From an uncultured Pseudomonadota bacterium (GTDB lineage Bacteria > Pseudomonadota > Alphaproteobacteria > RUG11792): a DNA stretch of 33,452 bases. How positions within the stretch are numbered: position 1 is the first letter of the stretch; each line of letters starts with the position of its first letter. The translations under genes and the position numbers were made by a program. The DNA lies in the NCBI GenBank assembly GCA_902798535.1, contig CADBWU010000015.1, positions 1-33,452 of the forward strand, in the 5' to 3' direction. A model generated the notes under the pieces. It was not told where the DNA came from and made no database searches. It worked only from the letters and a program-made list of their open reading frames with translations. Positions 1 to 26,102 of this stretch are shown in pieces.

Positions 1-415
1 TAATCGCTTCATGAATATAGTTATACAAAATAACTGCATTCCAGTTTCTTTGTTTATAAGTTTTAGGATCAGTATCTTTAAAGGTTATAATCTCTTCAGG
101 AGCCTTATTTGCAAACGCTCCCTCTCTAGCAACACAATCTCCTATGGCCTTGCCGATGACTTTTGTCCTGGAATCTTTATATTTGTCATCTAGGATCCAG
201 GAATATTCTTTTTGTTTACCGAGATATTGAAACGCATACTCCTTAAAACTACATGCTCTGTCCCAAGCTATCTGATTTAATTCACTTCTGAAATCATGTA
301 TGCTATTTTTAGCTTTAACAGCTTCCATAGCTATAACATCGCTCGAAATGGAAGCGAATATAGCTATAGCATTACCTAAGCCTAGCCCCCCGAACAAACA
401 TTTCTTTTTAAACAT
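1..415 (-). CDS. Exported protein of an unrecognised paralogous family, 5' part only (runs off the window)
   Basis: Reading leftward from ATG at 415 gives about 138 codons without a stop up to the window edge, so the 3' end is missing. The protein begins MFKKKCLFGGLGLGNAIAIF, a basic then hydrophobic stretch typical of a signal peptide, so export is inferred. It is a distant paralogue of the gene at 24506-25897: they share the spaced pattern YxDS, a Cys about 15 residues later, IIxF, then NWNA followed by LxNYI. The first 16 or so codons and all upstream DNA are almost identical between the two genes although the protein bodies have diverged strongly. Ribosome-binding site GAGGTG lies 9 bases before the ATG. 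Function unknown; no domain recognised. The G6 tract in codons 9-10 is a possible slippage site. Confidence 0.75.
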   Translation of the reverse strand, partial: MFKKKCLFGGLGLGNAIAIFASISSDVIAMEAVKAKNSIHDFRSELNQIAWDRACSFKEYAFQYLGKQKEYSWILDDKYKDSRTKVIGKAIGDCVAREGAFANKAPEEIITFKDTDPKTYKQRNWNAVILYNYIHEAI

Positions 416-464
416 TTCTATACACCTCAAAATAAATCACGGGTATCACTGCCCTCCTATAAAT

Positions 465-493
465 ATTCTAACATATTTTTCATGGCTATGCAA
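465..493 (-). promoter_or_regulatory. Sigma70-type promoter of the exported-protein gene
   Basis: On the minus strand TTGCAT (493-488) and TAGAAT (470-465) are separated by 17 bases, about 50 bases upstream of the ATG at 415. The same elements with the same spacing recur in the second module copy, where the -10 reads TAAAAT. Retention of both boxes and the spacer supports a working promoter; there is no experimental evidence. Confidence 0.6.
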
Positions 494-519
494 ATTATTT
501 TCAGCCGAAGAGTATCCCG

Positions 520-585
520 CCTGTCAAGGTCAGCGACCAGCGGTCGGTGACCGAAGGTTGCTGAGCGTATGCGTACCTTGACAGG
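520..585. repeat. Hairpin A of module copy 1
   Basis: Arms cctgtcaaggt (520-530) and accttgacagg (575-585) are exact reverse complements. The 44-base loop contains a nested stem cggtc/gaccg that is absent from copy 2. It lies upstream of the promoter, between it and the larger palindrome. Confidence 0.75.
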
Positions 586-589
586 CCTT

Positions 590-632
590 GGGGCGCGATG
601 TGGTAAAATAAAAACATACCACATCGCGCCCC
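590..632. repeat. Hairpin B of module copy 1 (GC-rich perfect palindrome)
   Basis: Arms ggggcgcgatgtggta (590-605) and taccacatcgcgcccc (617-632) pair perfectly over 16 bp around an 11-base A-rich loop. It sits 10 bases after the stop codon of the minus-strand permease remnant, so it may once have been a transcription terminator, though it lacks a T tract after the stem. The same palindrome lies 12 bases after the mfd stop. Confidence 0.8.
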
Positions 633-1288: not shown

Positions 1289-2191
1289 AGTACTGCTTTC
1301 AGTAGTTGGTTCATTTTGTTGCAAATTTGCCTTACTGAACCAGCCAATGTTGCGATGTGTGTTAACGATATATAAGGATATACCAGCGAAGTAAAACGAA
1401 TTCTAATATATACCTCGCATGTATCGGAAGAAATGTCAAATATATGGGAGGAAGAAGATAATAATAACAAATGGATAGCCGCTGTTGGATACAAAGATAG
1501 TGTATATCAGGTAATCTCAGGGCGTTAGCGGACTGCATGTTACAAACAAATGAACTTTCTATTGATGCGGCCAAACAGTCTGGAATAATACAATTCCAGA
1601 ACAATATAGTGGCAACTTATCATCAGTCCAACTGGAATGCAGCATTGTTGTATAACTACTTGTCACATATTATAAATGATCGTTTTAATGTTGGCTGGAT
1701 AGAAAAGCAAGGGGATGAGAAAAATCGTAATGCGACGCAACCGGAAATTGCCGACTTAGAATACGTTGCAATAAAGGTAGAAGAGGCATACAAAGGTAGG
1801 ATGGATGAGCAAACATTACATGTTTTTTTAGACAAAATCAGTAAAGGCTCTTGATTGCTACTTTAGCGCTCTTAAGCTATATACATTCCTGAAACACATC
1901 GTAGTTAGTAGAGAAAATTATTTTGCCAGAAAGAGAAGTTACGAAATCAACGTTCCCTATATCGGATACCATACGCAATATGTTGATAAGCGCGGAAATG
2001 GGCTCCGCTACAGAAATAACAGAACATCGATACAAAAATGAAATGACTATATGGTTGCGTATCACTTTGATTTTGTGATAAAGGAAGGCTCAATAAAAAA
2101 AATACAAGAAGATAACCGCAAGGGTAAAAAGTATGATATACAGCTCAACGACTATTATGAAATAAGCGACATTTTAAAAACTGAAAATTAG
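1289..2191 (+). pseudogene. Frameshifted, stop-interrupted paralogue of the exported-protein family
   Basis: Three blocks together resemble the family seen at 1-415 and 24506-25897. Block 1 (frame 2, about 1289-1516) has a TAA at 1376 and contains YKDSVYQVIS. Block 2 (frame 1, about 1515-1854) continues with ALADCM and then IIQFQNN, SNWNAALLYNYL, which aligns with IIEFRNA and ANWNALVLANFI of the intact copy. Block 3 (frame 2, about 1850-2191) is open apart from a TGA at 2039 and ends TAG at 2189-2191; it is plausibly the C-terminal half but the match there is weak. At least two frameshifts and two stops mean it is dead. There is no recognisable copy of the 5' control module upstream. Confidence 0.65.
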
Positions 2192-5951: not shown

Positions 5952-5999
5952 GGGGCGCGCGATATGATAAGATTACAAGCCTATCATATCGCGCGCCCC
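5952..5999. repeat. Hairpin B' (GC-rich perfect palindrome), relative of hairpin B
   Basis: Arms ggggcgcgcgatatgata (5952-5969) and tatcatatcgcgcgcccc (5982-5999) pair perfectly over 18 bp around a 12-base loop. Compared with hairpin B at 590-632 and 26060-26102 the arm keeps ggggcgcg and the AT-rich inner half, while two inner bases and one CG step differ; both arms have changed together so pairing is kept. Confidence 0.85.
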
Positions 6000-7574: not shown

Positions 7575-8372
7575 TACTAGATGCTGTCGTCAAAAGGAAT
7601 TGCGGTAGAGCATGATGGAGGCGATTGTGAGGTAAGCTTGGAAGGATGAGATATTTTTGGTATATCGTGTTGAAATACCCCTAAATTTTTTAATTTTTAG
7701 AAAAAATTTTCAACAATATGCCTCTTTTTATACAATTCTTTATCATAATTCCTCTGCATTTTTGCGTTGCTCCGCGATGGAATTACAGCATTCATTCCAG
7801 TTTTTGCGACAAATTCAACTATACTTTTACTGTCATAACCCTTATCAGCTGTCAGGTATTTTGCTTTAAAATCCTTGTTCAATTCCTCTGCACGCTGGCT
7901 ATCGTGCACATTTCTGTCGGATATGAGTATCTTCAAAGGCATTCCGCGAGCATCTACAGCGATATATGCTTTGATTTCCACATTTCGCACCACTTGCTTT
8001 CATATGACATTTCACGTACGTCGCATCAATCATAATACTGTTCAAATCCGGCTCATCCATCACTGATTTCAATATTTTGTCCCAAATTCCGCGGTCTCGC
8101 CACCTCGTAAATCACCGACGCGTATTTTTCCAATCTCCATACTCCTTCGGCAAGTCCTGCCATGGCGCTCCCGTCAGCGTGCTGCAATTCTCAAAATCCA
8201 GAACACAGCATTAATAATCTGCCCGTATACCCAATATTTCCCGGAAGATTTACATTAATTTTGTGCAAAATCTCATCATTTATATCATTCCTATGCAACA
8301 TCTTTATATTTCACTTCAGATATTTTCAAGGCTATTCTATCACTTTTTAGCATCTTTGATGACAGCGTCTAG
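7575..8372 (-). mobile_element. Decayed IS5-family (IS1031/IS427-like) insertion sequence
   Basis: Imperfect terminal inverted repeats bound it: ctagatgctgtcgtcaaa (7575-7592) and the complement of tttgatgacagcgtctag (8355-8372), with CTA on both outer sides as a possible 3-bp target duplication. The transposase runs on the minus strand. Its N-terminal part (near 8300) reads HRNDINDEI and NVNLPGNIG, then FTRWRDRGIWDKIL, MIDATYVKCHMKASGAKCGN; the C-terminal part (7993-7697) reads YIAVDARGMPLKIL, LTADKGYDS and YKKRHIVENFF, all typical of IS5 orfA/orfB. Several frameshifts, stops and a small deletion at the DDE region join mean it is not functional by itself. Confidence 0.85.
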
Positions 8373-11998: not shown

Positions 11999-12649
11999 GC
12001 TCTTGACTAGCATCTCTGAAAGAGATATGGTAAGAGGGTATAAAATACAGGCGTTTGAGCGATTACAAGGTAAAAAAAACTGTGAGGCGCTTTTGCGACG
12101 ATTTAACAGCGAGCACGACGTCTAAAATTTTATCCATAAATAGAAACACAATTAATGTATATTTTAACGAGTTTCGCGTAAAAATTTTGGCAAATTCTAT
12201 AAAAGAACATAGCAAATAATTTGGTATTTTTGAATTAGATGAAAGCTATTTTGGAGCACGTAGAATTCGTGGGAAAAGGGGTAGAGGAGCCGCTAGCAAC
12301 CCCCTGTTTTTGGCTTGCTAAAACGGGAGTAAAAACGTTCGTGCTGAATTGTTCAAAAGGGAAACTAGGGCAAGATACTGGAAGATTCGGCAATTCACAC
12401 CGACGGCTGGAGAGCGTATGATTTATTTTATTTGGGCACATTACCACAGTCAGAATGAATTTGCGTGTGGCAAAAGACATAATGTAAATGCCATCGAATG
12501 TCTTTGTAGTTTTTTCCGGAATACGGTAAGCAAAATTCAACAGATTGACAAGCAAATCTTTTGTCTCGCATTTGAAAGAATGTGAGTTCAGATCCTAACT
12601 ATAGATACGAAGGTTTGCTAGCTGTTTTGAAACAATGCCAGTCTAGAGC
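11999..12649 (+). mobile_element. Decayed ISXO2-like (IS1595 family) element, copy 1
   Basis: Bounded by inverted repeats gctcttgactagcat (11999-12013) and the imperfect complement of atgccagtctagagc (12635-12649). The plus strand encodes a broken transposase: KYRRLSDYKVKKTVRRFCDD, TASTTSKILSINRNTINVY, then after a TAA FELDESYFGARRIRGKRGRG, a frameshift, and SQNEFACGKRHNVNAIECLC. This is the ISXO2/IS1016 pattern (DESYFGGxRxGKRGRG; NEFARGKxHINGIESFW). Upstream ATG is mutated to ATA and there are several stops, so it is dead. It is about 140 bases shorter than copy 2, so it carries internal deletions. Confidence 0.85.
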
Positions 12650-16611: not shown

Positions 16612-17400
16612 GTTCTTGACTAGCATTTCTGAAAGAGATATGGTGATAGAGTATGAAATACAGGCGTTTGAGCGATTACAAGGTAAAAAAAATTATGAAG
16701 TGCTTTTGTGACGATTTAACAGCAAGCACGACAGCTAAAATTTTGCCCATAAATTGAAACATAATTAATGCGTATTAACTAGGTCTTTCAAAGAAAATAG
16801 CAAAGAATTGGGTATTTTTGAACACAGCGTGTTGAAACACAATGTATTTTGAGCTAGATGAAAGCTACTTTGGGGGGGATATGCAGAATTCGTGGGAGAA
16901 CAGAGTTTCTAATCCCCAATTCCTAGTTTTGCTTAAACAAAATAGAGGGGGGAGCTCATTACTGTTGCAAAAAATTGTTCAAACACAGAATGTGGGGGAT
17001 TTAAAATTGATGAGAGCTACTTCAGTGTTTGCAAAAAACGGAGACGAGAAGTTACATTTGTGATTTTCTAAAACGACACAAAAAAGTGTTCGTAACGTTC
17101 ATAAGAGAGCGCTAAGGCAAGATACTGGAAGGTTCGACAATTCGTACTGACGGGTGAATCTCGTAGATTTTGAACAGGTGCGATACCACAGTCAGAACTA
17201 ATTTGCACACGGCAAAAGACCCAATATAAATGCCATCGAATGTCTTTGTAGTTTTGCGAAAAGAAGGCTTGTAAAATTCAATGGATTGACAAGCAAGTCT
17301 TTTGCCTTGCATTTGAGAGATGCGAGTTTAGATTTAACCATAAAGGTGAAGATTTGCTAGCAATTTTGTTGGCAATTCTGAAACTATGCTAGTCAAGAGC
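16612..17400 (+). mobile_element. Decayed ISXO2-like (IS1595 family) element, copy 2
   Basis: Inverted repeats gttcttgactagcat (16612-16626) and the complement of atgctagtcaagagc (17386-17400) delimit 789 bases. The plus strand encodes MKYRRLSDYKVKKIMKCFCD, TASTTAKILPIN, a TGA where copy 1 has AGA (Arg), a frameshift, then FELDESYFGG. Near the right end remnants of the NEFxRGKxxxNxIE segment and the terminal KECEFRFN-like segment remain out of frame. It is the same element type as 11999-12649 and clearly inactive. Confidence 0.85.
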
Positions 17401-24505: not shown

Positions 24506-25897
24506 TCAGTCGAATAGTGAATTAAAGGCATTGCCAAAAATAAAGTCGTTGTCTTGCAGTGCTTTTAGAAGTATTTTATCACTATACTCATCTTCGCTAA
24601 GCTTAAATAGATTTCTAAACTCCGCAATTTTGTCTTTTTCCTCTCTTGATAGTTCTAGGTATTCAACAACCTGTGCATTACTTCTCTTCAGACTATCTCC
24701 AAAAGATCGTATTATCGTGGTTAAGCATCCCGCTGCAGAGTTCACTCCCTCCCCATTATTCTTAACTCGATATGCCAATTTACGTGCATCAGCACCACCT
24801 TGTGAGAAATTAACTATCTTGGTTTTGAAGTAATCTAGAGACGCCGCATCTAGTTGTTCTTTTGTTTTGCCACCCGGCATTATGAGATATGATAACGAGT
24901 ATTTTTGAGGAAGCTCATTTTTTATGATCTCTCTCCATTGATTCCCCTGCACTAGCTCAAATATCTTGATATTTTCACTGCTTGCACTCTTATCGAGATT
25001 CCAGAAATCAGTAGTGTATTTTACAACATTTTCAGGTATTGTGTATATAGGCATCATACTCCAATCTATATCATTTTTATACGAAACAACTTCAGTTGGC
25101 CGCACATTGCTGTCGTATTTTATTTTATACTCCCTCCAGAATGCGCTGTTTTCACCGAGGACTATATTATTTTCTGGATATGAAGCTATAACGCTGTTAC
25201 TGCTGTTATTCAGGTCAACTTTACTAATTCGTGCGTGAGGGGCTTTAATTTTACGGCTGTTTATATCAATGTCTTTTATTTTAGATATATATCCTACTAA
25301 ATCTACTCCTTTCGAACTTACGTATTGTGAAATATCGATTACGGCGTTCCCAATTAACTGCATAAAGTTAGGATTTTTTTGCTGCGCAAAACTCTTTTGC
25401 GAATAATAAGTAGTCAAGTCAGAGTATATGCTGTTTAATGTTGTGAAATAATTTCTTGTTACATCAAGGTCGTTATTCAGGGACTGATAAATAAAATTCG
25501 CTAACACTAAGGCATTCCAGTTTGCCTGGGAATATTTCATCATATCCGGCGTCGCATTGCGAAATTCAATTATATCAATCGCACCCCGTGAAACTGTGAT
25601 TTTTGCTTTAGAAAAAAACTCGGTATTATCTGTGACACAATTAGCGACAATTTGAGGAATAGCATCAAATATACTATCTTCATATTGGCTCGCTTTCCAC
25701 CATGTTTTTTGTTTAACATCAGCACATTTCCACGTTTCGCTTAAATGAGCTCGCCAGCTGTGCTGATACATCTCACGAGTCAATTCACTCTTGGGACTCT
25801 GTCCTTCGCTTGCACAACAACAAAAACTAGTCAATGACAGAACTACAGCACTACCTAAGCCTAGCCCCCCCCCGAACAAACACTTCTTTTTAAACAT
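24506..25897 (-). CDS. Exported protein of an unrecognised paralogous family, intact copy
   Basis: About 463 residues from ATG 25897 (AGAGGTG 9 bases upstream). The protein starts MFKKKCLFGGGLGLGSAVVL, a signal peptide followed by an unusual Cys cluster (SFCCCASEG), so it is exported. No known domain. Family core shared with the gene at 1-415 and the pseudogene at 1289-2191: YEDSIFDAI, Cys about 15 residues on, IIEFRNA, then ANWNALVLANFI. The C-terminal 60 residues are helical and charged (SREEKDKIAEFRNLF). A G9 tract covers codons 9-11. The upstream 200 bases, including promoter and two hairpins, are a near copy of those at 420-632. It follows mfd in the same direction but has its own promoter. 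Host-interaction protein is possible but only a guess. Confidence 0.8.
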   Translation of the reverse strand: MFKKKCLFGGGLGLGSAVVLSLTSFCCCASEGQSPKSELTREMYQHSWRAHLSETWKCADVKQKTWWKASQYEDSIFDAIPQIVANCVTDNTEFFSKAKITVSRGAIDIIEFRNATPDMMKYSQANWNALVLANFIYQSLNNDLDVTRNYFTTLNSIYSDLTTYYSQKSFAQQKNPNFMQLIGNAVIDISQYVSSKGVDLVGYISKIKDIDINSRKIKAPHARISKVDLNNSSNSVIASYPENNIVLGENSAFWREYKIKYDSNVRPTEVVSYKNDIDWSMMPIYTIPENVVKYTTDFWNLDKSASSENIKIFELVQGNQWREIIKNELPQKYSLSYLIMPGGKTKEQLDAASLDYFKTKIVNFSQGGADARKLAYRVKNNGEGVNSAAGCLTTIIRSFGDSLKRSNAQVVEYLELSREEKDKIAEFRNLFKLSEDEYSDKILLKALQDNDFIFGNAFNSLFD

Positions 25898-25948
25898 TTC
25901 TATACACCTCTTAAAAAAAACCACGGGTATCAATACCCTCCTATGAAT

Positions 25949-25977
25949 ATTTTAGCATATTTTTCATGGCTATGCAA
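25949..25977 (-). promoter_or_regulatory. Sigma70-type promoter of the intact exported-protein gene
   Basis: Minus strand TTGCAT (25977-25972), 17-base spacer, TAAAAT (25954-25949), 52 bases upstream of the ATG. Conserved with the promoter at 465-493. Confidence 0.65.
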
Positions 25978-26003
25978 ATTATTTTCAGATAAATAGTATC
26001 CCG

Positions 26004-26055
26004 CCTGTCAAGGTCAGCGACCAAAGGGAGCTGAGCATATGCGTACCTTGACAGG
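26004..26055. repeat. Hairpin A of module copy 2
   Basis: Arms cctgtcaaggt (26004-26014) and accttgacagg (26045-26055), identical to copy 1, with a 30-base loop instead of 44. Confidence 0.75.
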
Positions 26056-26059
26056 CCTC

Positions 26060-26102
26060 GGGGCGCGATGTGGTAAAATAAAAACATACCACATCGCGCC
26101 CC
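26060..26102. repeat. Hairpin B of module copy 2
   Basis: Same 16-bp arms and 11-base loop as 590-632. It begins 12 bases after the mfd stop codon in the minus direction, so it may serve as the mfd terminator even without a T tract. Confidence 0.8.

Follow-up and report, generated by a model that had tools for sequence, protein, structure and literature searches.

We describe a family of putatively exported proteins in the reduced genome of a rumen alphaproteobacterium. Many of the genes begin with a front end that is kept alike within the species and whose inner boundary is a run of G in the codons of the signal peptide. The best explanation of the whole is a homogenised front end combined with poly-G contingency loci, and this reading is given a probability of about 0.82. 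The DNA analysed (the window) is 33,452 nucleotides long with a GC content of 37%. It is contig C15 of a genome of 945,849 bases in 61 contigs.

According to the proposed mechanism, the module comprises promoter, 5' leader, start and the n-region of the signal peptide, and ends at the poly-G tract. Gain or loss of G by slipped-strand mispairing at replication would toggle the reading frame downstream. Each family gene would be a contingency locus, and the choice of paralogues expressed, out of about 30, would differ from cell to cell in one population. Recombination, either as gene conversion or as an exchange of cassettes joined near the tract, would hold the 5' module near-identical within the species, and the protein-coding part would evolve as old, divergent subtypes behind it.

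The module pair in the window

Two stretches of the window, 367-632 and 25847-26102, both on the minus strand, were picked out by a sequence-only reading as about 260 near-identical bases that run from the outer edge of a palindrome to roughly codon 16 and stop within the coding region. Both observations are borne out, and the coordinates are correct. The two stretches share 234 of 251 aligned bases (93.2%), with 17 mismatches and 20 gap columns, and their alignment score is 406 against a top score of 31.5 among 200 shuffles. The outer palindrome edges lie at 632 and 26102, the start codons at 415 and 25897, and codon 16 at about 367. Past codon 16 the coding DNA of the pair aligns at 71% with free gaps, which is no better than the 74% reached by shuffled sequence. 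In a protein-guided alignment the identity is 0.91 in the leader, 0.97 in the signal peptide before the tract and 0.42-0.43 in the N-terminal domain (N-domain). Identity therefore falls sharply and does not decay gradually into the coding region. Plain duplication with even divergence is ruled out by this sharp crossover together with the conflict between module and domain trees described below. The features of the window are as follows.

2..415, minus strand: family gene 1 (L001/L059), putatively exported protein, tract in frame (ON), 138 codons seen, truncated at the left end of the contig
386..391, minus strand: poly-G tract of gene 1, 6 G within signal-peptide codons
441..454, minus strand: short 5'-leader palindrome of gene 1, GGGCAGTGATACCC, recurring in 13 copies
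465..493, minus strand: promoter-like site of gene 1, TTGCAT, 17 nt, TAGAAT, conserved in every module copy
520..585, no strand: inverted repeat CCTGTCAAGGT...ACCTTGACAGG ahead of gene 1, belonging to a separate dispersed repeat
590..632, no strand: palindrome with 16-bp arms, GGGGCGCGATGTGGTA...TACCACATCGCGCCCC, ahead of gene 1, same dispersed repeat as 520..585
1519..1854, plus strand: remnant of a further (third) member of the family, in which only the second half of the N-domain is left (profile match C15:1519-1662, E 7e-10)
24506..25897, minus strand: family gene 2 (L006/L063), putatively exported protein, tract in frame (ON), 463 codons
25865..25873, minus strand: poly-G tract of gene 2, 9 G within signal-peptide codons
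25925..25938, minus strand: short 5'-leader palindrome of gene 2, GGGTATTGATACCC
25949..25977, minus strand: promoter-like site of gene 2, TTGCAT, 17 nt, TAAAAT, aligned to the gene 1 site
26004..26055, no strand: inverted repeat CCTGTCAAGGT...ACCTTGACAGG ahead of gene 2
26060..26102, no strand: palindrome with 16-bp arms ahead of gene 2

Read in the direction of the gene, the module consists of the palindromes, TTGCAT-17-TAGAAT, the leader, ATG TTT AAA AAG AAG TGT TTG TTC, the G run and CTAGGCTTAGGT. A promoter scan lists the gene 1 site as TTTGCA-18-TAGAAT (9/12). The N-domain of gene 1 matches the family profile at C15:8-385 (E 4e-49). The 14-bp leader palindrome (441-454 and 25925-25938) lies directly 3' of the promoter and exchanges T-A for C-G at one pair among 13 copies, a weak signal of pair-preserving change (covariation). 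It could form a stem-loop at the 5' end of the mRNA or serve as a binding site.

Copies, palindromes and encoded proteins

Family members were counted by profile searches and DNA searches of the contigs of the genome. The module is not confined to the two copies of the window, since the DNA search finds the promoter, leader and signal-peptide start about 14 times in this 0.95-Mb genome. About 10 of these copies have the palindromic part upstream, and about 10 further copies of the palindromic part lie elsewhere. Five contigs (C10, C14, C23, C8 and C52) and the left end of the window stop inside the module or gene, as would be expected for a repeat too long for short reads to span, so the true copy number is probably higher. 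When what follows each copy is listed, every promoter/signal copy on a contig that continues leads into a member of one protein family.

Each protein of this family starts with a signal peptide, which precedes a conserved domain about 100 residues long and a variable remainder. The conserved N-domain follows the pattern ...LNQIxWR...WIKxxxYxDSIxKVIGKAIGDCVTxENEF...ITF...NWNAVxLYNYV... and its profile has 37 matches in this genome, which correspond to about 30 genes or fragments. Four congeners have 35, 29, 18 and 2 matches. Two further genera of the order have weaker matches, 14 in one and 7 in the other, and there are none in the remaining 28 of the 35 genomes of the order examined. A distant family-like protein in another genome (L240 of G018) has a C-terminal part that matches the calcineurin-like phosphoesterase family. 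A plasmid origin of the family was considered and rejected, the N-domain being absent from the plasmids searched; a viral origin of the module was likewise set aside, with no exact module match among the viral contigs searched.

The two window proteins have no match in Pfam, and 19 family proteins searched against 24,736 models gave no match that is consistent among members. A single member matched a toxin-subunit model (E 8e-4), which in a search of that size was treated as chance. A PDB sequence search with the family gave no match. A structure model of one member (L060), built from 19 family sequences, is of high confidence, with a mean pLDDT of 84 and a pTM of 0.88. In the predicted fold the N-terminal two thirds are helical and are followed by a strand-rich part and terminal helices. 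The model has no fold match at E <= 0.001 in the PDB or the viral library BFVD. We infer export of the proteins from the appearance of their signal peptides, and a surface or host-facing role is presumed.

The palindromes have a distribution of their own. The GGGGCGCG palindrome and the CCTGTCAAGGT...ACCTTGACAGG repeat each occur at about 20 sites in the genome, mostly paired as a unit of about 110 bp for which folding prediction gives a very stable structure (z = -10.3). This palindromic part is also present at about 10 places without family genes, between unrelated genes. At least five family genes (L013, L016, L019, L027 and L029) have the promoter/signal part, or its inner half, without palindromes. 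The proposal of a single cassette that includes the palindrome thus fails, as either part occurs alone, and the palindromes are best treated as a separate small dispersed repeat that often adjoins the module. The suggestion of a terminator also finds no support: the hairpin itself is strong, but no intrinsic-terminator-like site (GC-rich hairpin and T run) was found on either strand. An Rfam search gave only weak matches to eukaryotic miRNA/snoRNA models, far below the cut-off.

The loop of the CCTGTCAAGGT repeat consists of varying numbers of GGTCNNNGACC-like units (520-585, 26004-26055), the longest being at G000:C29:9623-9756 (L021/L026). This repeat looks like an independent small repeat element. 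Other repeats are present in the window. A GGGGCGCGCG palindrome of similar design and other inner sequence lies at 5952-5999, away from family genes. Two decayed copies of one element, with pieces 77-88% identical, lie at 12001-12579 and 16614-17320 and are perhaps insertion-sequence remnants. A DDE transposase fragment (Pfam DDE_Tnp_1) is found at 7697-7993.

The poly-G tract

The inner edge of the module is a poly-G tract inside the signal-peptide codons, a feature absent from the description in the sequence-only reading. At the same codon position the genes of this genome have 6, 7, 9, 10, 11 or 17 G, as read from consensus assemblies in which short-read MAG values may be off by one base. 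Tracts of 6 or 9 G leave the frame intact (ON). Those of 10, 11 or 17 G break it (OFF), and translation then ends only a few codons away. Five OFF genes with 10 or 11 G have intact frames after the tract (L055, 363 codons; L056, 515; L057, 319; L058, 314; L062, 362). All five species of the genus, this genome and the four congeners, carry the tract at the same place, and both states occur among the congeners. Tracts in G003 have 12, 6, 6, 9 and 9 G (ON) and 10 and 10 G (OFF), and those in G004 have 10 and 11 G, both OFF.

Runs of at least 8 G occur at about 32 places genome-wide, at least 12 of them at this codon position, where about 0.01 would be expected. About half of the family members are without a long tract. 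There are other long G runs in this genome, some of them inside ordinary coding sequence, so the diagnostic feature is the fixed position and not the run alone. One run of 14 G (L111, G000:C1:4388-4401) lies away from any family gene. In five family genes (L054, L181, L182, L193 and L205) the tract is interrupted or shortened (GGGTGGGG, TTTTTTGGGGGG, GGTGGAGGG, GGG), and these are possibly locked states. Two distant family members in another genus (L233 and L238 of G008) have 9 and 13 G near the protein start, at about the expected place, which suggests that the switch predates the genus or arose twice.

Three features of slipped-strand switching are found at this tract. It is placed so that its length, 6-17 G in signal-peptide codons, alters the frame. 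Both ON and OFF lengths occur, and the five OFF genes that stand beside ON paralogues are otherwise intact (314-515 codons). The tract also varies faster than its surroundings, in a comparison between loci and not between cells: L002 and L009 are identical in the 40 nt that precede the tract and in the 66 nt that follow it, and the tract has 9 G in one and 17 G in the other. The N-domain dN/dS between pairs of OFF genes is about 0.09-0.39, where dS is finite, which indicates purifying selection on out-of-frame genes. Loss of mismatch repair as the source of tract instability is rejected, since MutS and MutL are both present and the genome is therefore no general mutator. As it stands in the assembled contigs, the pattern is the one that marks phase variation by slipped-strand mispairing, of which Neisseria opa is an example. 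Frame switching by the poly-G tract is very probable, and on/off switching, conferred by the tract, would be the most likely function of the module. The same lengths would presumably change in living cells.

The alternative that survives best, although it is unlikely, is transcriptional or ribosomal slippage at the tract. OFF alleles would then still yield some protein, and the tract would be a leaky device in place of a heritable switch. Slippage has been described for poly-A tracts in Buchnera (PMC2831843), and it would account for the selection kept on OFF genes, but it leaves the differing genomic lengths between loci unexplained. It is also compatible with genetic switching, to which it could be an alternative or an addition.

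Front ends, protein subtypes and known systems

The genes of four species were compared by segment, with the N-domains sorted to subtypes that, unlike the species labels, were named after the alignment had been viewed. Genes of the same species and different subtype have mean identities of 0.77 in the promoter, 0.70 in the leader and 0.87 at the start, against 0.63, 0.49 and 0.76 for genes of different species and the same subtype. Behind the tract the order is reversed (0.48 and 0.54 versus 0.63 and 0.65). The leader of gene 2 is 91% identical to that of gene 1 and 39% to that of L214 of a goat-rumen species; for the first half of the N-domain the values are 43% and 80%. The module tree has 4 species changes (minimum 3) and the domain tree 11. 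Constraining the domains of a species to one clade is rejected for this species (p-AU 2e-40) and for G003 (p-AU 2e-15).

In the 5' modules the grouping thus follows the species. In the protein domains it follows the subtype, whatever the species, and the change from one to the other comes just past the tract. Copies within a species are more alike than copies between species in the module, the pattern of concerted evolution, and the reverse holds for the domain. It follows that the modules became alike within species after the subtypes had separated, and we hold homogenisation of the front end within species with high confidence. The proposal of an expression and export cassette that is moved or homogenised stands in one part, the homogenisation of promoter, leader and signal-peptide start, and falls in another, as the unit is not indivisible. 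The collapse of identity behind the tract after high values throughout the module agrees with that proposal, as does the sharing of the same expression and export signals by different putatively exported proteins, where one front end precedes old subtypes common to several species.

Some genes are mosaics. L061 and L062 have unrelated leaders and a common post-tract signal half, which in L062 is joined to a different domain subtype, and L071 begins abruptly just upstream of the tract. Such sequences suggest that parts are joined at two places, one at the tract and one close to where the signal peptide ends. In another locus, L010 (G000:C29:328-499), the palindromes and promoter of the module are followed by another leader and by a signal peptide that has no poly-G, and the two parts meet just behind the -10 box.

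Shared regulatory need could in principle conserve the module by itself, with no recombination between genes. Selection could plausibly act on the promoter, the leader palindrome and the signal peptide, and the weak pair-preserving change in the palindrome fits with this. Selection alone would however keep modules alike between species, whereas leaders of the same subtype are at 0.49 between species against 0.70-0.79 within them. The conflict of module and domain trees and the existence of mosaic genes such as L062 also contradict this account, and we consider it improbable. Slightly less probable again is that the OFF genes are pseudogenes in decay, with modules that are still near-identical because the duplications were recent. 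Some members are indeed broken (L009/L078, with 17 G and a second frameshift, L186, and the remnant at 1519-1854). The five intact OFF genes nevertheless keep 314-515 codons, the break in all of them is exactly the tract, and dN is below dS in OFF genes. Most sites differ between N-domains that follow near-identical modules, which shows that the duplications do not date from recent times. The weakest alternative, that tract lengths are assembly errors and all genes are really in frame, draws on fragmented MAGs with contigs that end in or near the tract, but the tract is conserved in five species, with interrupted forms among them (GGGTGGGG and GGTGGAGGG, for example), and loci whose flanks are otherwise identical differ in tract length by up to 8. 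Instability would be expected of a G run at these codons even if every length were wrong.

The homogenised front end with its poly-G switch resembles several known systems in part. Mycoplasma vlp-type lipoprotein families have near-identical promoter/signal regions before divergent, individually switched coding regions; there it is the promoter that contains the homopolymer, and the products are tandem-repeat lipoproteins. Homopolymer contingency loci near gene 5' ends, such as poly-G in Campylobacter and poly-A in Listeria inlA, are mostly single unrelated genes, in contrast to the one family with one copied cassette described here. In Neisseria, opa is a dispersed multigene family in which the number of CTCTT repeats in the leader-peptide codons switches each copy (PMC3745409, PMC3960869). 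The present family is likewise dispersed, with a repeat tract inside the signal-peptide codons of each copy, but it has poly-G and about 30 genes where opa has a pentamer and up to 11 genes. The Opa proteins are outer-membrane adhesins, and the Pfam, PDB sequence and PDB/BFVD fold searches gave no sequence or fold relation of the present proteins to Opa or another known surface protein. The test of species-wide homogenisation of the front end covers the poly-G family, with opa left out of the comparison. In Anaplasma, also a reduced-genome alphaproteobacterium, the conserved 5' end of msp2/p44 is joined by recombination to variable protein parts (PMC4534519). That system has one expression site fed by silent donors, whereas each gene here has its own promoter and its own switch.

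Mechanisms of this class have been described before. The literature searched yielded no counterpart for the organism group, the protein family, the predicted fold, the number of loci or the coupling of switch and homogenisation, and no description of a large homopolymer-switched family in this uncultured, small-genome rumen order. We put forward tentatively, at somewhat less than even odds, that this is an undescribed system of combinatorial variation in a reduced-genome alphaproteobacterial order, with about 30 poly-G-switched exported proteins of a new fold, a switch cassette that is copied as a unit by recombination, and a G tract that is the joint between a species-wide module and swappable subtypes. 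If true, it would add a large homopolymer-switched gene family to this order. It would be a natural experiment in which switch and export signal evolve in concert and the cargo diversifies. Antigenic, adhesive or phage-receptor variation are candidate benefits of the switching, and the proteins themselves, a new family with a predicted fold open to characterisation, may act where the bacterium meets a host or phages.
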